Positions 509 to 17,449 of a stretch of 38,587 bases of DNA are shown here, in pieces. The stretch's first letter is position 1; each line of letters opens with the position of its first letter. Source of the DNA: Patescibacteria group bacterium (lineage in GTDB: Bacteria; Patescibacteriota; Gracilibacteria; UBA1369). Position numbers and translations under genes: made by a program. The DNA lies in contig CAUJDC010000044.1 in assembly GCA_963169815.1 (NCBI GenBank), forward strand, positions 1-38,587, in the 5' to 3' direction. The notes under the pieces were generated by a model. That model was not told the origin of the DNA, did no database searches, and saw only the letters and a list, made by a program, of their open reading frames with translations.

Positions 509-2134
509 ATGAAAGTAAGAACACGTTTTGCCCCATCTCCAACCGGATATTTGCATATCGGGAGTCTGCGTACCTGTCTCTACAATTATTTATTTGCCAG
601 ACATCATGAAGGAACATTTATTCTACGTGTAGAAGATACCGATCAAACCAGATTTGTCGAAGGTGCCGTAGAAAATCTACTCAAAGTATTGGCTGTTTTC
701 GACATGCTGCCTGACGAAGGACCGGTTTTACCAGCCAATCTACAGAAACCTCTCGATCGCGACTTAACTGATTTAACAGACAAAGGCGATAAAGGTCCTT
801 ATGTTCAATCAAAACGCACTGAGCTCTATCAGGAATATGCCAAAAAACTGATTGACACTGGTCATGCTTACTATTGTTTCTGTAGTCCAGAAGATTTAGA
901 CAAAATGAGAACTGAGCAGGAATCAGCCAAGCTCGCCCCAATGTATGATCGTCGTTGTCTCAAGCTTAGTCCAGAAGAATCACAAGCCAAATTGGCCGCG
1001 GGAGGCTCTTATGTTATTCGTCTAAAAATGCCCCGCGATCGCAAAATCGAATTTGTCGATGCGGTTCGTGGCAAAGTAAGTTTCATGGGCAATCAAATTG
1101 ATGATCAGGTTTTAATCAAATCAGATGGCTTACCGACTTACCACTTGGCCAATGTAGTCGATGACCATTTCATGGATATCACCCATGTACTTCGTGCTGA
1201 AGAATGGCTGGCTTCTACACCAAAACATTTGGTAATGTTTGAAGCCTTTGGTTGGACTGCTCCAGAATACGCGCATCTTCCTCTGATTTTGAATGCCGAT
1301 AAATCTAAACTTTCCAAACGTCAAAATGACGTTTCAGTGGAATCTTATTTAGACAAAGGATATTCCAAAGAAGCCCTAATTAACTTTGTCGTAATGATGG
1401 GGTGGCATCCTGGTAAAGGCAGTGAACAGGAAGTTTTCAATATGGAAAATTTAATCGCTCAATTCTCTCTGGAAGGAGTTCACAAAGCCGGTGCCGTCTT
1501 CAATCCTGAAAAATTAGACTGGCTCAATCACACTTGGCAAAAGATTAAGTACTTCCAAAAACTCGACCATGAAGCTCTCAAACTCAATTCCAGCGTCAAA
1601 ATTGATGTCAGCAAAAACTTCGATCATGCATATCAATTCGAAAATAATGATACCACCAACAAATTCCAAAAAATCCGTGCTGAAATACTGGCCGAATTAA
1701 GCGGACTCAACAATCATCCTCAAATGCAGACTGATTCTGAAAAGCTTTTCCGCGCTTTACTAGTTAATGAAGAAAAAATTCTCCAAAATCCAGCCCAAAC
1801 TTGGGAATTAATCGCCTATTTATTTGAGGATTCAAAACTCAACCCTGCTCTCCTTCAAAATCCTAAAATGGGCGTTGATTCTCATGAAAAAGCCCTGGAA
1901 TCACTAAAATTTGCCAATGAAATCGTCAATGAATTAACTGAAAATTCCGATTTAAATGAGATTAAAGAAGCTTTTATGGCAAAAATCAAGGCCGCCGGCC
2001 GCAAAAATGGGGAAATTCTCTGGCCATTACGCGCAGCACTAACCCGTCAAGAGTTCTCCATAGGAGCCTTTGAATCGCTTTGGGTGCTTGGTAAAGCTGA
2101 AAGCGCAAAAAGACTTGCCGAAATCATTAAATAA
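509..2134 (+). CDS. gltX: Glutamyl-tRNA synthetase
   Basis: This class I aminoacyl-tRNA synthetase charges tRNA-Glu with glutamate in the cytoplasm. The N-terminus carries the GluRS signature FAPSPTGYLHIGSLRT (HIGH-type motif, residues about 7-22). The KMSKS-type loop is KLSKR at about residue 270. A CFC pair followed by YDRRC at about residues 130-150 resembles the zinc-binding segment of GluRS. The C-terminal 200 residues are helical, as in the anticodon-binding domain. At 541 aa it is somewhat longer than the usual 470-500 aa, apparently through insertions. The ATG at 509 lies directly before the conserved MKVRTRFAPSPTG start, with no Shine-Dalgarno motif upstream. Whether it also charges tRNA-Gln cannot be told from this window. 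A tRNA-Glu gene lies at 12886. Confidence 0.96.
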   Translation: MKVRTRFAPSPTGYLHIGSLRTCLYNYLFARHHEGTFILRVEDTDQTRFVEGAVENLLKVLAVFDMLPDEGPVLPANLQKPLDRDLTDLTDKGDKGPYVQSKRTELYQEYAKKLIDTGHAYYCFCSPEDLDKMRTEQESAKLAPMYDRRCLKLSPEESQAKLAAGGSYVIRLKMPRDRKIEFVDAVRGKVSFMGNQIDDQVLIKSDGLPTYHLANVVDDHFMDITHVLRAEEWLASTPKHLVMFEAFGWTAPEYAHLPLILNADKSKLSKRQNDVSVESYLDKGYSKEALINFVVMMGWHPGKGSEQEVFNMENLIAQFSLEGVHKAGAVFNPEKLDWLNHTWQKIKYFQKLDHEALKLNSSVKIDVSKNFDHAYQFENNDTTNKFQKIRAEILAELSGLNNHPQMQTDSEKLFRALLVNEEKILQNPAQTWELIAYLFEDSKLNPALLQNPKMGVDSHEKALESLKFANEIVNELTENSDLNEIKEAFMAKIKAAGRKNGEILWPLRAALTRQEFSIGAFESLWVLGKAESAKRLAEIIK

Positions 2135-2165
2135 TAGGAAAATTAAACCGTTTATAAGAGCCACA

Positions 2166-2543
2166 ATGAATTTTAGTGAATTAAATCAAATAGTTAGATT
2201 CTTAAGGAAGACTTTACCTTGCTCAAGCTGCAAGAACAGCTATCTCAATGATAGTATTGAAGTATTATCTACCTTCGACGACCAGGGGTTATTTAACCTG
2301 ACTTGCCCTAGCTGCCAAACTCAATTGTTAGTCCACATCACCATCAGCGATGATGAACGCAATTTATCCGAACCAAAAAAGTCCGGCAAACAAAGTATTC
2401 GCGCTCATCGTTCTCTCAATGAGAAGGACATTACCGCTCAAATTCATGATGCCCACATCTCTACTGATGATGTCATCAATATGCATACTTTCCTCAATCA
2501 ATTTGATGGAAACTTTAAAGAATTATTTTCTAAACGGCAGTAA
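2166..2543 (+). CDS. Small zinc-ribbon protein of unknown function
   Basis: This 125-aa protein has two CxxC knuckles, CSSC at about residue 19 and CPSC at about residue 46. They are about 25 residues apart with beta-type sequence between and after them, typical of a zinc ribbon. The C-terminal half is hydrophilic and rich in Asp, Asn and His, ending in a helix (VINMHTFLNQFDGNFKELF). The ATG at 2166 is preferred over upstream in-frame starts because those would lie inside gltX. It sits 31 bases after gltX and 9 bases before the next gene, so it is probably co-transcribed. No signal peptide or membrane segment is visible. A regulatory or RNA-binding role is possible but unsupported. Confidence 0.7.
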   Translation: MNFSELNQIVRFLRKTLPCSSCKNSYLNDSIEVLSTFDDQGLFNLTCPSCQTQLLVHITISDDERNLSEPKKSGKQSIRAHRSLNEKDITAQIHDAHISTDDVINMHTFLNQFDGNFKELFSKRQ

Positions 2544-2552
2544 TTGTCTCCC

Positions 2553-2876
2553 ATGAAACAAAAACAAAATATCATCGCGCTACTAATGCTGACTTCTATC
2601 CTCTTTGGTGGTTGTCAGCTTCTTAAGGATTCAGCCAAAGATCTTCGTTCAACCATCGATCAAACCGCTGAAAACGCCAATAAGATCAAAGACGACGCCA
2701 TGCATAAAATCGATGATGCCAAAAAATCTGTCGATGACCTCAAAACCAAAGTAGATGAAACTAAAAAGGCCGTGGACACCAAGATGCAGCAAATTGACGA
2801 TGCCGCCAAGAAGATCCAAGACGCCCAAAAAGCCATCGAGCAAGCAAATCAATCAATACAGACTGTAACCAAATAA
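2553..2876 (+). CDS. Coiled-coil lipoprotein
   Basis: This 107-aa protein starts with a lysine-containing n-region, a hydrophobic stretch (IIALLMLTSILFGG) and a lipobox LFGGC. It should be lipidated on Cys21 and held in the membrane facing outward. Everything after the Cys is a charged, Ala/Lys/Asp-rich alpha-helix with heptad-like spacing (repeated DDAKK, DDLK and DETKKAV units), so an extended coiled coil is expected. The ATG at 2553 is chosen over an upstream TTG because it gives a standard lipoprotein signal. It precedes pta by 6 bases. Its architecture recalls Lpp-type or LEA-like structural lipoproteins, but no specific family is recognised. Confidence 0.8.
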   Translation: MKQKQNIIALLMLTSILFGGCQLLKDSAKDLRSTIDQTAENANKIKDDAMHKIDDAKKSVDDLKTKVDETKKAVDTKMQQIDDAAKKIQDAQKAIEQANQSIQTVTK

Positions 2877-2882
2877 TTGGTT

Positions 2883-3947
2883 ATGTCTTTAAAAACCATC
2901 AATCAGTTAATTACCAAAGCCCAAAAACATCAGGCAAAAATAATTTTTCCTGAAACCTTTGATGCCCGCACTTTGAAAGCCCTTGCTGAAATTATCAAAA
3001 AGAAAATTTGTCAGCCTGTTTTAATTGGCACAAAAAAAACTCTTAAAACCTCTGCCAGTAAACATCGAGTTAAATTAAATTTGGACACTTGTTTAATAAT
3101 TGATCCTAGCGATTCAAAACTGCAAAACCAGTTGACCAAAAGACTTTTGCAAATACGCGGTAAAAAAGGTCTTACCCCAGTCGAAGCCCAAAAACTGCTG
3201 ACCGACATCAACTATTTTTCTATTATGCTACTCGAAGTAGGCGTGGCCGATGGCATAGTTTCTGGCGCCGCTTCCACCACAGCCGATACGCTTCGTCCAG
3301 CCTTCCAAATCATTAAAACCTCCTCTGGCAAAAAACTCTGTTCCGGCGCCTTCTTAATGTGCTTTAAAAATCGCCCACCAATCCTCTTTGCTGACTGCGC
3401 TGTTAACCCCCGTCCAACTCCAGCCGAAATAGCCACCATCGCCATCGAATCAGCCGAAACTGCCTTATTTCTTGGCCTTCAGCCAAAAATCGCACTACTT
3501 TCCTTCTCCACCCACGGCTCTTCAACTCACCCTGATGCTTTAGCAACCGCCGAAGCAGCCAAAATACTCCGCCGCCGTTTGAGTGCTCGAAGTACTAGAC
3601 GTATCGATATGCTCGCGACCGACCGAAGAAGCGCTATTTCACGACGGGCCCACTCCAACATCCTCATAGACGGCGAACTCCAGGCCGATGCCGCATTGGT
3701 TCAATCAGTAGCTCATTTCAAATCGCCCAAATCCCAAGTCAAAGGTTTGGCCAATGTACTCATTTTCCCTTCTTTGGAGGCTGGAAACATTGCCTATAAG
3801 CTAGTAGAACGTCTGGCTGGCGCTGAAGCAATTGGAACAATTGTCCAAGGTTTAAGCAAACCAGTTAATGACCTGTCTCGTGGTTGTAAACCGTCAGACA
3901 TTGTGGCACTCGCAGCTATCACTGCCCTTCAAACAAAACATCAATAA
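2883..3947 (+). CDS. pta: Phosphate acetyltransferase
   Basis: It converts acetyl-CoA and phosphate to acetyl-phosphate, feeding the acetate kinase encoded immediately downstream. Family landmarks are FPETFDARTLKAL (residues 22-34), DGIVSGAASTTADTLRPA (123-140), LLSFSTHGSS (205-214), DGELQADAAL (263-272) and the C-terminal NVLIFPSLEAGNIAYK (291-306) and GLSKPVNDLSRG (323-334). The length of 354 aa fits the short Pta class. The ATG at 2883 is preferred to a TTG two codons upstream. Relative to the E. coli protein as remembered there are about 25 extra Arg-rich residues at 233-257, annotated separately. Only 6 bases separate it from ackA, so the pair forms an operon. Confidence 0.93.
   Translation: MSLKTINQLITKAQKHQAKIIFPETFDARTLKALAEIIKKKICQPVLIGTKKTLKTSASKHRVKLNLDTCLIIDPSDSKLQNQLTKRLLQIRGKKGLTPVEAQKLLTDINYFSIMLLEVGVADGIVSGAASTTADTLRPAFQIIKTSSGKKLCSGAFLMCFKNRPPILFADCAVNPRPTPAEIATIAIESAETALFLGLQPKIALLSFSTHGSSTHPDALATAEAAKILRRRLSARSTRRIDMLATDRRSAISRRAHSNILIDGELQADAALVQSVAHFKSPKSQVKGLANVLIFPSLEAGNIAYKLVERLAGAEAIGTIVQGLSKPVNDLSRGCKPSDIVALAAITALQTKHQ
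3579..3653 (+). other. In-frame Arg-rich insertion inside pta
   Basis: Between a conserved helix (AEAAKILRRR) and the DGELQADAAL motif, this Pta carries about 25 extra residues, 9 of them Arg or Lys. They include codons such as CGA and CGG that are infrequent in neighbouring genes. The segment begins with GAGTGCTCGA (3581-3590) and ends at GGGCCC (3646-3651). The same two words frame the centre of the palindromic element at 19406-19506. The insertion boundary comes from an alignment by memory, and the link to the palindrome is only suggestive. Confidence 0.45.
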
Positions 3948-12818: not shown

Positions 12819-12846
12819 TTGACTTGAGCGACAATCTCAATATAAT
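12819..12846 (+). promoter_or_regulatory. Promoter of tRNA-Glu
   Basis: TTGACT (12819-12824) and a perfect TATAAT (12841-12846) are 16 bases apart, placing the start of transcription about 33 bases before the mature tRNA 5' end. Confidence 0.75.
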
Positions 12847-13067: not shown

Positions 13068-13100
13068 ATGGGCACTAAAATTATCTTTTTATTCAAAGAA

Positions 13101-13433
13101 ATGCTCATCACTATTTCCAGAGAACTCTGTATCGGTGCCGCTCCTTGCGTAGCTATAGCAGGAGATGTTTTCCAACTCGATGAGGAAGGCAAATGTATTC
13201 AAATTGGTCTGGTTACTGACGAAGCAAATACCAGACTGGCCGCGGAAGCCTGTCCAGTCAGGGCAATCTTTATTTATGATGATGCCAAAATTCAATTATA
13301 CCCACCAGAAGACGAAATGCCTTATCCATATGTTCCTGAACCAATTCTTAGCATGAAACCTGCCAATAATGTGACTCAAGCACCGACTCAGCCAACTCCA
13401 CCAGAAGCCCAAGAACCACCAAAGGCCGCCTAA
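13101..13433 (+). CDS. Monocluster ferredoxin with Cys-to-Ala substitution and proline-rich tail
   Basis: This 110-aa protein begins with the ferredoxin core ITISRELCIGAAPCVAIAG and closes with AAEACPVRAI. Cluster cysteines are C10, C16 and C51; the second ligand position of a standard CxxCxxC loop is Ala13. That pattern is typical of single [3Fe-4S] ferredoxins, or of [4Fe-4S] proteins with one open iron site. C32 is an additional cysteine. Residues about 68-110 form a Pro/Ala/Glu-rich tail not needed for the fold. The ATG at 13101 fits the usual ferredoxin start and the promoter position; an upstream ATG at 13068 would add 11 hydrophobic residues. It likely passes electrons to an unknown partner and heads a five-gene operon. 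Confidence 0.85.
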   Translation: MLITISRELCIGAAPCVAIAGDVFQLDEEGKCIQIGLVTDEANTRLAAEACPVRAIFIYDDAKIQLYPPEDEMPYPYVPEPILSMKPANNVTQAPTQPTPPEAQEPPKAA

Positions 13434-13445
13434 AACCAAGCCAAT

Positions 13446-14435
13446 ATGGCTGACCAAAATCACAATTCACCAGCCTTCACGATTGACCTTGATCAAGCCG
13501 CTCAAGCCTGGGAATCTATTAAATCAGCGAAGCAAATCGCTATCATTTCTCATCGCCACCCCGATCCAGATACCGTTGGAGCCAATTTAGCCTTGCGCAG
13601 CGCGCTCACAAAAGCTGGCCTACAAATTCAGTCTTTTTGTGTTGATGCACCACCAGAAACATGTCAATTTCTCGAAGAATCAGCTTGTTATCAAAAAAAT
13701 TTTCAGCCAGAAAACTTTGACCTGATTATCAGCGTAGATTGTGGAGGTATAGAACAAGTCGCCTTTCAAAAACAGTTCCCTGATATTTTCAAAAGTAACT
13801 TTATCAATATCGATCATCACGCCTCCAATCAGTTATTCGGAACCATCAACATTGTTCAAACCAACCTTTCTTCCACCTGTGAAATAATTTATCAATTATT
13901 ACATTTTTGGGAACTTCCAGTTACTACAGATATCTCCAATTACTTATTATTTGGTTTATATTACGATACTGGCAGCTTCATGCACCCCAATACAACTCCA
14001 ACGGTTTTAGAAATTGCCAGCGATTTAGTCAGACTGGGCGCCCGATTGGATTTAATCACCAAAAGCCTTTTTCAAAATTTCACAGAAAATAAATTTCATC
14101 TCTGGGGTCAGATACTAGAAAAAATCAAAGTCACTGCCGAAGGTAATGCTGCAGCAGCCATTCCTCATCAAGATTTAGTAAAACATCAAGCCGGCTCAGA
14201 GGAGTTGAGCGGTCTCACTAATTATCTAAGCATGGTTAAAGGCAGCAAATTTGCCGTAATGGTCAGCGAAGAAGAGACTGGGCAAATTAGAGGGTCACTA
14301 AGATCAGTGAGCGGCGATGTAGATTTATCCAAATTGGCTCAAAGCCTAGGCGGCGGTGGCCATCGCAAGGCCTCAGGTTTCAGTTTGGAAGGAAAAATTA
14401 CCGAACATCCTTTTTGGACAATTCAACAAAATTAA
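13446..14435 (+). CDS. DHH/DHHA1 phosphoesterase, NrnA-like oligoribonuclease
   Basis: Family members degrade 2-5 nt RNAs or cyclic-dinucleotide products, and some dephosphorylate pAp. All motifs are present: HRHPDPDTVG (residues 36-45), VDCGG (97-101), the DHH triad in IDHHAS (122-127), YYDTGSF (172-178) and the DHHA1 substrate loop GGGGHRKASGF near residue 308. The length of 329 aa is standard, so the enzyme should be active with two metal ions. It follows the ferredoxin by 12 bases. Its stop overlaps the next start (TAATG), coupling it to the RNR-like gene. NrnA is the best guess; a cyclic-di-AMP-directed DHH enzyme (GdpP-type) is less likely as no sensory domain is present. Confidence 0.9.
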   Translation: MADQNHNSPAFTIDLDQAAQAWESIKSAKQIAIISHRHPDPDTVGANLALRSALTKAGLQIQSFCVDAPPETCQFLEESACYQKNFQPENFDLIISVDCGGIEQVAFQKQFPDIFKSNFINIDHHASNQLFGTINIVQTNLSSTCEIIYQLLHFWELPVTTDISNYLLFGLYYDTGSFMHPNTTPTVLEIASDLVRLGARLDLITKSLFQNFTENKFHLWGQILEKIKVTAEGNAAAAIPHQDLVKHQAGSEELSGLTNYLSMVKGSKFAVMVSEEETGQIRGSLRSVSGDVDLSKLAQSLGGGGHRKASGFSLEGKITEHPFWTIQQN

Positions 14436-16318
14436 TGGAATTAAAATTACAAACCAGCCAGGGACAGATCATTAAACTCAGATTTCAACAGTTGGAAGAA
14501 TTAATGTTACAAGCCTGCCTAGAAAAAAATATCACTGCACAAATCAGCCATGAAATTCTTAGCAAGATCAGTAAATACCTGGAAATTTTTTTATTAAATC
14601 CAGGAAATATTCTATCAACAGATCAATTTATCAGTCTAATTGCGAATATCTGTAATGAAAATGAACAAGCCGAACTTGGCCAAGCTTTAAGCAAGCTCCT
14701 ATTACAAAACAATTCTCAAGAAATAAAAACTGAATTCAGCTTCAATAAAATTCAACAGGAAAAACTCAAAAAACTCTATTTGCCACCAGCAGAAACTGGT
14801 CTGAGTTTCGCCGATCTGGTCAACAAAATCGCTAATAAAAACAATGATTTTACCAACGCTGTCAAACTAATCAAGCTATTCGATCAATCAATCTTTTTTC
14901 CCGACCATAACAATCATAAAATAGTCTTAAAAGACGACTTAGACGCCATTTTTGAAGGACTCAAAACTACAGCCAGAAATTTTCAAAACCATATCAGCAC
15001 CTGCATTGATTTCTCCAAACTTAGACCAAAATTATCGTTAATCCACTCGATTAAAAATTTTTCCAGTGGTCCAATTTCTTTCATCAAAATCTACGCGGCT
15101 ACTATCGAAACTCTGCGTCAATCAATCAGCAGTGAATTCACTCCACATCAGACTTTCATACTAAATATCCATCATCCGGACATCTTAGAATATCTGATTT
15201 TCATTAAAAATTTCCAGAAAAATTCGCTCAATGCGCATTGCCATTTCAAAATAGAAATTACTTCCAATTTCCTGGAAGCTCTTAGCAAAGAGGAAAATTT
15301 TGAGTTAATCAGTCCAGAAAATAATCAAATCATCAACCTACTAAGTGCTAAACACACTTTCGATTTAATTATTTCCACGATTCAGGAAAACTCTCAATTG
15401 GAGATCACCAGCGCAGTAAATGGCGAAGCAAATAATGAGTTAACCATCAACGGTTTATTTAATCTTGCACCTTACGGTATGGTTAAAAATCCTCTAAGAA
15501 AAATTAGTGAAGATTTAAAAACTGTCGAAGAATATTTACTCAAACAAAAAAATTCAGCCAGTCAAAATACCAAGAAGGTTTTGCAGATACGTCTAAATTT
15601 CACTGGTTGGCATGATTTTCTAATCGGACAAGAGATTCCTTACGCCTCCATTCAGGCCCTTGAAATGGCTCAAAAAATGGTCAATCACATCAACAGTGCT
15701 TTGGCTCCAGATACAGGAAAAGGTGTGAGTTTAGCTTCACCGTTGCAAGCAATTCTCGAGCAAAGTCATGGCCTGGAAACGTATCAATCGCTTAGTTACT
15801 CTCGCACTAGTTTAGAGGGTGCTGAAAATATTCAATTAATACAACCTTTGCAGGACAGTTTAAATAATTCCAATTTGAATTTGGCCGAGCTTACCAAAAT
15901 AATTGTCGAACAAAATTCATTGAAAGAGATTTATCAGATCCCCTCCGCAGTCAAAAACATTTTCACCCTTGGTCAGGAAATCCCTGCAGATTTTCACTTC
16001 AGTTTACAAAAAATCTTCGAAACAGGTTTCGGTAACAATATCGAAAAAATGATTTTCTTGGAAAGGCATTTTGACCTGGAAGAAGCAAAAAAAATCTTCC
16101 AGGAACAATTACTGAACAATTTATTAAACCTAGGTTATTCCCAATTCCAGCCAATCTCCCGTGAAAGTTTAAGTGAACATCAATATTTGGACAAAAATTA
16201 TTTACACTCTCTCAACAATCAAAATCGTCGTCGACATCGTGAGATACAACCTCCACTTTTCCAATTGAAAAAAACTGAAGAAATAAAATTACCTCCCATC
16301 AACTCATCACAAAAATAA
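14435..16318 (+). CDS. Catalytically degenerate class II ribonucleotide reductase-like protein
   Basis: Segments of this 627-aa protein align in order with B12-dependent ribonucleotide reductase (NrdJ): FSKLRPK (193-199), SGPISFIKIY (211-220), HHPDILEYL (246-254), FTGWHDFLIGQEIPYAS (389-405), SHGLETYQSLSYSRTSLEG (444-462) and SLKEIYQIPSAVKNIF (495-510) with HFSLQKIF and NNIEKMI (521-540). Residues 1-95 resemble an ATP-cone. The reductase chemistry cannot work. The only cysteines are 28, 73, 190 and 269; the first catalytic Cys aligns with about His161, the thiyl Cys of NPCGE with about Glu331, and its partner with Phe342. The PTG-S phosphate loop is also lost. It is thus a pseudoenzyme, perhaps a nucleotide binder. 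The ATG at 14435 is chosen over an in-frame TTG at 14414. Confidence 0.8.
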   Translation: MELKLQTSQGQIIKLRFQQLEELMLQACLEKNITAQISHEILSKISKYLEIFLLNPGNILSTDQFISLIANICNENEQAELGQALSKLLLQNNSQEIKTEFSFNKIQQEKLKKLYLPPAETGLSFADLVNKIANKNNDFTNAVKLIKLFDQSIFFPDHNNHKIVLKDDLDAIFEGLKTTARNFQNHISTCIDFSKLRPKLSLIHSIKNFSSGPISFIKIYAATIETLRQSISSEFTPHQTFILNIHHPDILEYLIFIKNFQKNSLNAHCHFKIEITSNFLEALSKEENFELISPENNQIINLLSAKHTFDLIISTIQENSQLEITSAVNGEANNELTINGLFNLAPYGMVKNPLRKISEDLKTVEEYLLKQKNSASQNTKKVLQIRLNFTGWHDFLIGQEIPYASIQALEMAQKMVNHINSALAPDTGKGVSLASPLQAILEQSHGLETYQSLSYSRTSLEGAENIQLIQPLQDSLNNSNLNLAELTKIIVEQNSLKEIYQIPSAVKNIFTLGQEIPADFHFSLQKIFETGFGNNIEKMIFLERHFDLEEAKKIFQEQLLNNLLNLGYSQFQPISRESLSEHQYLDKNYLHSLNNQNRRRHREIQPPLFQLKKTEEIKLPPINSSQK

Positions 16319-16852
16319 ATGCAACTTTTCAAAGATATTGTTTTACTGCTGACTTTTATATTGGTCTTACTGATGTTCGCCACAGTTTTCGTTTCATTTT
16401 TCATGGCCAAAGTTCCTTTTGTTCCAACTCGTAAAAAGATTCTACCTTTACTTGAACCACACTTGAAAGATCGCCAAGGGCAGCTAATGCTTGACATAGG
16501 TTGTGGAGACGGAAAAGTGCTTTTTTGGGCCGAAAAAAAACTGGGACTGAAAGGACGTGGATTTGAAATTTCTCCACTTCCCTACCTCTTAAGCATCGTT
16601 AGCAGATACCTAAAAAGTTCTTCAGTCGAACTACGCTTTGCTAATTTTTTCAAACAAAATCTCCAGGATGCCAACTTGATTTTTTGCTATCTCTTTCCTG
16701 AACTTGTAGAAAAAGCTTATGACCAAGCCAAAAAACAATGTAAACCGGGCACATTATTTATTTGTAATACCTTTAGACCAAAACAGCTAGAACCTGTTAA
16801 AATAATCAGTGACGAGAAAAACAAACCTTATTTCTATATTTACCAGCTCTAA
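16319..16852 (+). CDS. Membrane-anchored SAM-dependent methyltransferase, FAM173-like (copy 1)
   Basis: This 177-aa protein has one N-terminal membrane helix (about 7-30), then PFVPTRKKIL, then a class I methyltransferase core. The core shows motif I LDIGCGDGKVLFWA (about 59-72), the acidic strand-2 end FEIS, and a strand-4 segment ANLIFCYLFPEL (about 119-130). The PFVPT element preceding motif I and the late CYLFPE segment are features of FAM173-type enzymes, whose animal members methylate lysines of ATP synthase c subunit or ADP/ATP carrier. The substrate here is unknown. It starts at the base after the previous stop and is followed after 3 bases by a clear paralogue. Confidence 0.8.
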   Translation: MQLFKDIVLLLTFILVLLMFATVFVSFFMAKVPFVPTRKKILPLLEPHLKDRQGQLMLDIGCGDGKVLFWAEKKLGLKGRGFEISPLPYLLSIVSRYLKSSSVELRFANFFKQNLQDANLIFCYLFPELVEKAYDQAKKQCKPGTLFICNTFRPKQLEPVKIISDEKNKPYFYIYQL

Positions 16853-16855
16853 AAA

Positions 16856-17449
16856 ATGCTCGATCTTATCACCAGCCTTCTAGTTATTCTTGGTTTAATA
16901 CCATTACTCTATTTCACCAGCCATCAATTTAATGATCTATTCGCCTTAGTAGTTTTAATTTTGCTCAGTGTGCCAACTGTGATGGCCTTGGTAAATGGTG
17001 CACCTTTCGTACCAACACCAATGAATCAAGTGAAGAAAATGGTCGCTCTTGCCAAATTAAAAAAAGGCCAACGTGTTTATGACCTCGGTTGTGGCGATGG
17101 TCGTTTTGTTTATATTGCTGCCAACGTGTATGGAGCCAAAGCTACTGGTATCGAGCTATCACCAATGGTTTATCTCTATGCCAAAGTCCGCCAACTTTTC
17201 TGGAGATCCAAAGCACAAATTGTTTTTGGAGATTTCAAAATGCGCAACATCTCTGACGCCGATGTAATTTTCTGCTATCTGCTTCCAGAATGTTTGACCA
17301 GAATTCAACCAGATCTCGATAAGCAATTAAAACCAGGAACGCTCATTTATTCATACGCATTCAAAATTCCCAGCTGGAAATTAATTCATACTGAAGAAAG
17401 AGACAAAACTGCTAACCTCGGACCAGTTTTCGTCTACGAAAAAGTATAA
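16856..17449 (+). CDS. Membrane-anchored SAM-dependent methyltransferase, FAM173-like (copy 2)
   Basis: This 197-aa protein is a tandem paralogue of the preceding gene. It has two hydrophobic segments (about 3-21 and 27-47), the linker APFVPTPMNQVKKMV, then motif I YDLGCGDGRFVYIAA (about 75-89), IELSP, and ADVIFCYLLPECL (about 138-150). The C-terminal segment LIYSYAFKIPSWKLI matches the SxxFxxPxW end of FAM173 enzymes better than copy 1. Retention of the G-x-G-x-G SAM loop in both copies suggests both are active. Its last 38 bases overlap the end of comEC on the opposite strand. Confidence 0.83.
   Translation: MLDLITSLLVILGLIPLLYFTSHQFNDLFALVVLILLSVPTVMALVNGAPFVPTPMNQVKKMVALAKLKKGQRVYDLGCGDGRFVYIAANVYGAKATGIELSPMVYLYAKVRQLFWRSKAQIVFGDFKMRNISDADVIFCYLLPECLTRIQPDLDKQLKPGTLIYSYAFKIPSWKLIHTEERDKTANLGPVFVYEKV

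Follow-up and report, generated by a model that had tools for sequence, protein, structure and literature searches.

A non-catalytic ribonucleotide reductase homologue retaining the dimer and effector half-barrel and a putative clamp-binding tail in a family of uncultured bacteria

Ribonucleotide reductases (RNRs) are, to our knowledge, regarded as conserved, essential enzymes. The nucleotide-sensing module that they share with NrdR, an ATP-cone repressor of RNR genes, is used by the latter outside RNR. Beta-herpesviruses possess RNR large subunits that are catalytically inactive; one of these, M45 of MCMV, was repurposed for protein-protein interaction (PMC12282084). The bacterial protein described here, P0001, resembles M45 in being a non-catalytic homologue of the RNR large subunit. 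It differs in that M45 is viral, is an R1 without R2, and uses an aggregation motif to sequester host RIPK1 and NEMO; nor are half-barrel forms, as found in the family of P0001, described among the inactive R1 proteins of beta-herpesviruses. An earlier note on this DNA knew of no described RNR pseudoenzyme of this kind. Given the beta-herpesvirus cases this holds only in a narrower form: in the open-access literature searched we found no inactive RNR that is cellular, class II-derived or reduced to a half-barrel. A family-wide study of RNRs dropped sequences shorter than 400 aa (PMC9531940), so that short forms would stay hidden.

The closest characterized enzyme is the Thermotoga maritima NrdJ (PDB: 1xje; PRK08665/TIGR02504). 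In NrdJ the dimer is made by the helices alphaA and alphaB, and the effector site by loop 1 (PMC9669993). The 3'-OH of the effector is held in the T. maritima enzyme by Asp141, and its phosphates by Arg171 together with Lys158 (PMC4728125).

The stretch of DNA that we analysed (the window; 38,587 nucleotides, contig CAUJDC010000044.1 or C44) belongs to a 1.09 Mb genome in 59 contigs of a relative of Ca. Peregrinibacteria. It exhibits an intact ORF of 627 codons (P0001, 627 aa, 14435-16318, + strand), as the earlier note had read it. Read with table 11 the frame stays open throughout, which rules out a frameshift or recoding; a TGA counted in the match from genome G007 is the terminal stop and not a recoded codon. 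P0001 matches the RNR barrel domain of Pfam (PF02867, E-value = 9.8e-24) and the B12-dependent NrdJ model of NCBIfam (E-value = 2.1e-43). Against T. maritima NrdJ (1xje) P0001 gives an E-value of 6.8e-17 by itself, and a four-sequence profile gives 1.8e-34. These matches are far above chance level, and P0001 is a true RNR homologue. Matches to viral and phage proteins are to ordinary NrdJ (about 23-38% identity over core parts), and the nearest relatives of the reduced proteins in the tree are peregrinibacterial NrdJ; a phage origin of the long form was rejected. PADLOC gave no match for P0001, for its upstream or downstream neighbour or for the 212-aa form introduced below, ruling out P0001 as a known defence protein.

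An AlphaFold2 model computed from four long pseudo-RNR sequences alone (pLDDT 61, pTM 0.41) has T. maritima NrdJ (1xje) as its top PDB match in Foldseek (4e-18). A second model, computed from 14 sequences (pLDDT 77, pTM 0.68), superposes on 1xje with Z 27.3 at 3.3 A over 463 residues (VIA) and predicts an RNR barrel with its finger loop deleted; its input included ten canonical NrdJ rows, which makes it less independent than the first. P0001 shares with T. maritima NrdJ the predicted ten-stranded barrel, helices alphaA and alphaB, loop 1, the D141 and R171 positions and the HPDI motif. It lacks the thiyl-radical cysteine, the redox pair, the finger loop, loop 2, the PTGTIS loop and the Cys-rich C-terminus.

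P0001 lies in a likely operon, in the order ferredoxin, DHH, P0001, methyltransferase, methyltransferase. The first gene encodes a single-cluster ferredoxin (13068..13433, +; Pfam Fer4_15, 5.5e-9); a promoter-like TTGACT-16-TATAAT, a consensus match only, is found near it at 12819-12846. The second encodes a DHH/DHHA1 phosphoesterase (NrnA-like; 13446..14435, +; Pfam DHH 5.5e-16, DHHA1 1.8e-10), whose stop codon overlaps the ATG of P0001 by one base (TAATG). Two tandem methyltransferase-like genes follow (16319-16852 and 16856-17449, +) with spacings of 0 and 3 bases.

We compared 13 genomes of the family, designating the position behind the DHH gene as locus C and its protein by the genome (e.g. 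G008C for genome G008). Ten genomes carry a locus-C protein, and in all ten the DHH gene is directly upstream; from this conserved gene order we take these proteins to be orthologues. Two of them, in G004 and G010, are full-length NrdJ of 725 aa with the active-site cysteines, and eight are non-catalytic. Long forms without catalytic cysteines (587-627 aa) are found in G000, G002, G005 and G007, and G003 shows the apparent start of a long form interrupted by the contig end. The 336-aa G009C consists of an intact ATP-cone and the first half-barrel. In G006, G008 and G012 the protein has only 189-212 aa, with the first half-barrel as its sole barrel part and the C-terminal tail kept; some orthologues are thus, compared with NrdJ, a half-barrel and a tail only. 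The gene was not found in G011 or in the 53%-complete G001. Beyond the family, 353 genomes of the class yielded no clear reduced form, with a few shorter ORFs among the hits incompletely resolved. The catalytic-Cys-free relatives that the earlier note proposed to look for do exist, among the eight non-catalytic proteins at this locus.

The reduced forms group as a single clade (SH-aLRT/UFBoot 99.2/100; 96.8/98 with a smaller set) adjoining the full-length locus-C enzymes. One loss of the second half-barrel is not distinguished from two (AU p=0.38). G004C and G010C, the full-length locus-C NrdJ of sister genera, resemble P0001 in lying behind DHH, in being nearest to it in the tree and in having the same tail, of which the second motif reads EE[IV]xPPPI in G004C and G010C. 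Unlike P0001, these two keep the active-site cysteines, NPCGE, loop 2 and a PTGTIS-type loop (as APAGTLS), their sole loss being the C-terminal Cys-rich reductant domain. The best explanation is that the ancestor of P0001 was a full-length NrdJ whose gene took up its place behind DHH in one peregrinibacterial family.

P0001 possesses exactly four cysteines (28, 73, 190 and 269), none after residue 269 and none at a catalytic position; the count of the earlier note was exact. Its residue assignments need revision. The thiyl-radical cysteine (C322 in T. maritima numbering) had been aligned with Glu331 and its partner with Phe342. A replacement by these residues is ruled out, the finger loop itself being deleted: the alignments exhibit gaps there, and in the AlphaFold2 models about 8 residues (junction 327-334; 15413..15436, +) join betaE (322-326) to betaF (335-343). 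Likewise, the first redox cysteine, equated with His161, falls in an alignment gap with no residue reliably aligned, N160 and H161 lying nearby. The PTGTIS loop is missing in the alignments, as had been reported. Among the seven distinct reduced proteins none has any of the three catalytic cysteines, the active-site redox pair (C134, C333) included. Loop 2 is similarly degenerate (residues ~229-238 of P0001; 15119..15148, +), with 6% of the canonical-invariant cells kept and the R207 equivalent in none of the seven. The C-terminal Cys-rich reductant domain is also gone from P0001, whose tail has no cysteine. Without C322, adenosylcobalamin-dependent reduction by P0001 is not expected.

The part of the barrel that faces the dimer partner and the effector is retained. 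The first half-barrel (betaA-betaE, residues 165-325; 14927..15409, +) contains the dimer helices alphaA (169-184) and alphaB (213-228) and loop 1 (193-212). Asp167 (codon 14933..14935, +) corresponds to T. maritima Asp141, the anchor of the effector 3'-OH, and Arg197 (codon 15023..15025, +) to Arg171, an anchor of the effector phosphates (PMC4728125). Both equivalents are found in all seven distinct reduced proteins, and that of Asp141 is invariant throughout the reduced forms, full-length NrdJ and phage NrdJ. The Lys158 position is Gln, Arg or Lys in the reduced forms; Gln occupies it in most of them and in the full-length locus-C enzymes. Of the canonical-invariant cells, 57% survive over alphaA, loop 1, alphaB and betaC-HPDI, whereas loop 2 and the Gly-rich turn have kept 11%; this statistic counts related sequences as independent, and its p value is indicative only.

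The half-barrel kept in the pseudo-RNR is probably dimerising and effector-competent. The suggestion of the earlier note that the protein senses nucleotides is now better founded, since the effector anchors survive where the catalytic relay (loop 2, finger loop, cysteines) is lost. Recognition of the effector base in active RNRs depends in part on loop 2, so the effector affinity of the reduced forms may be low. Whether nucleotide still binds at the old specificity site appears to us, from the conserved anchors, evenly balanced.

Other domains are less well conserved. The second half-barrel (residues 335-570; 15437..16144, +) is kept but divergent in P0001 and missing in the short orthologues. 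The N-terminal domain (residues 1-95; 14435..14719, +) is ATP-cone-like but degenerate, modelled by AlphaFold2 as beta-beta-alpha4 (pLDDT ~70-89) and giving no Pfam ATP-cone match at E 0.1. Pfam does recognise an ATP-cone in G005C (5e-7) and an intact one in G009C (8.5e-23). G009C thereby resembles NrdR in carrying the module outside an active RNR, and P0001 differs from NrdR in having no Pfam-recognisable ATP-cone. Second half-barrel and ATP-cone are thus dispensable and have been deleted in some lineages. Among the long forms the mean identity is 80% in the tail (603-622), 49% in the half-barrel core, 32% in the second half (residues 381-560), 25% in the finger region and 23% at the N-terminus, the two best-conserved parts being those that the shortest orthologues retain. 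A new enzymatic activity gained on the old nucleotide-binding barrel could account for the second half-barrel being kept in the long forms with some invariant residues. That half is nevertheless poorly conserved, and it has been deleted at the same locus in G006, G008, G009 and G012; we consider such a gain highly improbable.

The stepwise loss of domains, together with the gene not being found in G011 or the half-complete G001, might also suggest a decaying pseudogene that is open by chance. The substitution pattern argues against this. A comparison of G008 with G012 gives, for the 212-aa form, 33 synonymous changes against 3 nonsynonymous ones (dN/dS 0.021), and neutral evolution is rejected (p ~1e-20). 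The ratio is among the lowest in its neighbourhood and below that of DHH (0.059), a difference that is not significant (p=0.16). The long forms have kept their frames intact at saturated or near-saturated dS, and their tails are 80% identical against about 20-50% elsewhere. A chance-open pseudogene is accordingly ruled out by dN/dS, and chance decay retains only a vanishing probability. Purifying selection has preserved the half-barrel of the dimer and effector sites, as well as the C-terminal tail. The central claim of the earlier note, a retained non-catalytic RNR homologue, is borne out by the homology, the fold, the loss of all catalytic cysteines and strong purifying selection in the family; we hold with high confidence that P0001 is a non-catalytic pseudoenzyme kept by selection.

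The tail of P0001 (residues 603-627; 16241..16315, +) is predicted to be disordered (pLDDT ~30-38), and in the long forms 14 of the 20 residues at 603-622 are invariant. It contains two short motifs. The first, QPPLF (605-609; 16247..16261, +), is a putative beta-clamp-binding motif. Clamp-binding proteins such as DnaE, PolC and Hda carry a short motif of the QxxLF or QxxLP[LF] type in a flexible segment, and P0001 is alike, its binding being inferred from the motif. The consensus is QxxLF, with QLSLPL as a tight variant (PMC12309361). QxxLF or QxxLPF occurs in nine of the ten locus-C proteins, G006C having no clear copy. Among the 158 proteins of at least 100 aa in the ten locus-C neighbourhoods, exactly nine exhibit QxxL(P)F among their final 45 residues, all of them locus-C orthologues. 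The full-length enzymes at the locus have QLSLF or QSQLPF, that of G004C being the textbook QLSLF. The family's own DnaE proteins match this at their internal clamp site, with Qxx[LI]F. The prolines at positions 2-3 of QPPLF are unlike the best clamp binders. No QxxL(P)F tail was found in the canonical NrdJ of the order, the motif being specific to locus C, and we found no RNR relative with a clamp-type tail in the literature searched.

The second motif, EEIKLPPI (615-622; 16277..16300, +), follows the pattern EE[IVF]xxPP[IV], which is present in all ten locus-C proteins (with QQ replacing EE in G009C) and unique within the genome. In several families of the order, canonical NrdJ proteins carry EExxPP[IV] as well, in the tail ahead of the Cys-rich end, and the motif is thus probably ancestral. 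Neither tail motif is present in the 19 phage NrdJ that we checked. Taking the motif evidence together, we lean slightly towards the tail of P0001 docking on the sliding clamp.

Each of the ten genomes that carry a locus-C protein encodes another RNR, which may be of class I, large class II or the monomeric RTPR-like type; these family names were assigned by profile, for one member per type. The cell of P0001 (G000) possesses a full class I RNR, comprising a NrdA with its cysteines (TIGR02506, 1.2e-210) and a NrdB upstream. A large PRK07562-type class II enzyme is found in G005, G006, G008, G009 and G012, and a monomeric RTPR-like enzyme in G002. The dNTP supply can thus come from the other RNRs of these genomes. 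Separate ATP-cone proteins of NrdR size (149-185 aa) are present in 12 of the 13 genomes. P0001 might join the active RNR of the cell in hetero-oligomers, as a non-catalytic partner or decoy, and regulate it, given that the RNR dimer face is kept and that an inactive subunit resembling RNR could poison an oligomer or tune it. The co-resident enzymes, however, are three different RNRs, to which no single dimer interface would fit, so that a direct regulator of RNR is quite unlikely.

We tentatively propose that P0001 works as a tail-docked, non-catalytic adaptor, a reading to which we give, leaving aside whether every contact holds, slightly less than an even chance. The half-barrel would form a dimer through alphaA and alphaB, and a dNTP may still bind at the specificity site of the dimer interface, its signal reaching no active site. 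QxxL(P)F would dock the protein on the sliding clamp of DNA polymerase, and EExxPPI would bind a second partner. The likeliest client would be the DHH enzyme encoded directly upstream, so that a replisome-tethered and possibly dNTP-responsive adaptor would bring or regulate an oligonucleotide or nucleotide phosphoesterase. Operon linkage to DHH is no proof of contact, and the gene arrangement leaves the odds of such a partnership about equal either way.

The gene order in the ten genomes, with the stop-start overlap in the window, would be expected of a structural scaffold or stabiliser for DHH only, with neither nucleotide sensing nor clamp contact. That account leaves unexplained the invariant effector anchors D141 and R171 and a clamp-like motif common even to the full-length enzymes, and we regard it as rather unlikely. 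The tail-docked adaptor covers these features, although its elements (pseudoenzyme, clamp, nucleotide and DHH) would probably not all hold together. Similarly doubtful is its boldest form, in which the allosteric half-barrel of RNR, freed of catalysis, would be a clamp-tethered dNTP-sensing adaptor that ties a DHH phosphoesterase at the fork to the supply of nucleotides.

A link between RNR and the replisome is disputed (PMC2826317). If the tail binds the sliding clamp, this family would connect an RNR relative physically with the replisome, in a way open to experiment. A single bacterial family exhibits, in species alive today, the path from enzyme to pseudoenzyme, with the full-length protein, the long dead form, the ATP-cone with half-barrel and the bare half-barrel. 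The split between what was kept (the dimer/effector face and the tail) and what was dropped (the finger loop, loop 2 and the second half) sets the regulatory module of RNR apart from the chemistry that the enzyme performs, and the short forms bear on the question of whether half an RNR barrel is able to fold and function alone. These observations suggest that an old enzyme has turned into a non-catalytic helper, kept under strong selection in a small family of uncultured bacteria.

At locus C, where an RNR-type gene lies directly behind a DHH phosphoesterase gene, two of the peregrinibacterial genomes carry a full-length NrdJ (G004:C112, L047 positions 916-3090; G010:C50, L037). In both proteins all the active-site cysteines are present, the C-terminal Cys-rich domain has been lost, and the tail exhibits the putatively beta-clamp-binding motif (QLSLF / QSQLPF). 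A ferredoxin gene stands immediately upstream of the DHH gene in G010. Canonical NrdJ sequences from several families of the order (L014, L030, L032, L153 and others) exhibit the motif EE[FIV]xxPP[IV] in the linker preceding their Cys-rich end. This motif, found in none of the phage NrdJ sequences examined, is apparently undescribed in the literature searched.

In six genomes the locus-C gene is followed by a gene for a protein of 760-780 aa (L075-L079 and L083; G004_6, G010_5, G009_9, G008_9, G006_6 and G012_7), which exhibits no confident Pfam match. It is absent behind the locus-C gene in G000 (the genome of the window), G002 and G007, and a different protein of 354 aa takes its place in G005. 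The putative start of another long pseudo-RNR (L087, positions 2373-2708) is truncated by the end of contig G003:C2. A second, paralogous DHH phosphoesterase adjoins a methionyl-tRNA formyltransferase-like gene (L090, G003:C54; L088, G011:C47), with no RNR gene beside it at either locus.

In the window, a strong sigma-70-like promoter match (11/12, positions 12819-12846), a consensus match only, separates the FtsL-like gene from the ferredoxin gene; such matches are not in excess across the region as a whole.

The working RNR (loci G000:C51, G004:C9, G002:C4 and others) differs within this one family: depending on the genome, it is class I NrdAB, a class II enzyme of the large type, or an RTPR-like monomer. 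An essential enzyme is replaced repeatedly here.
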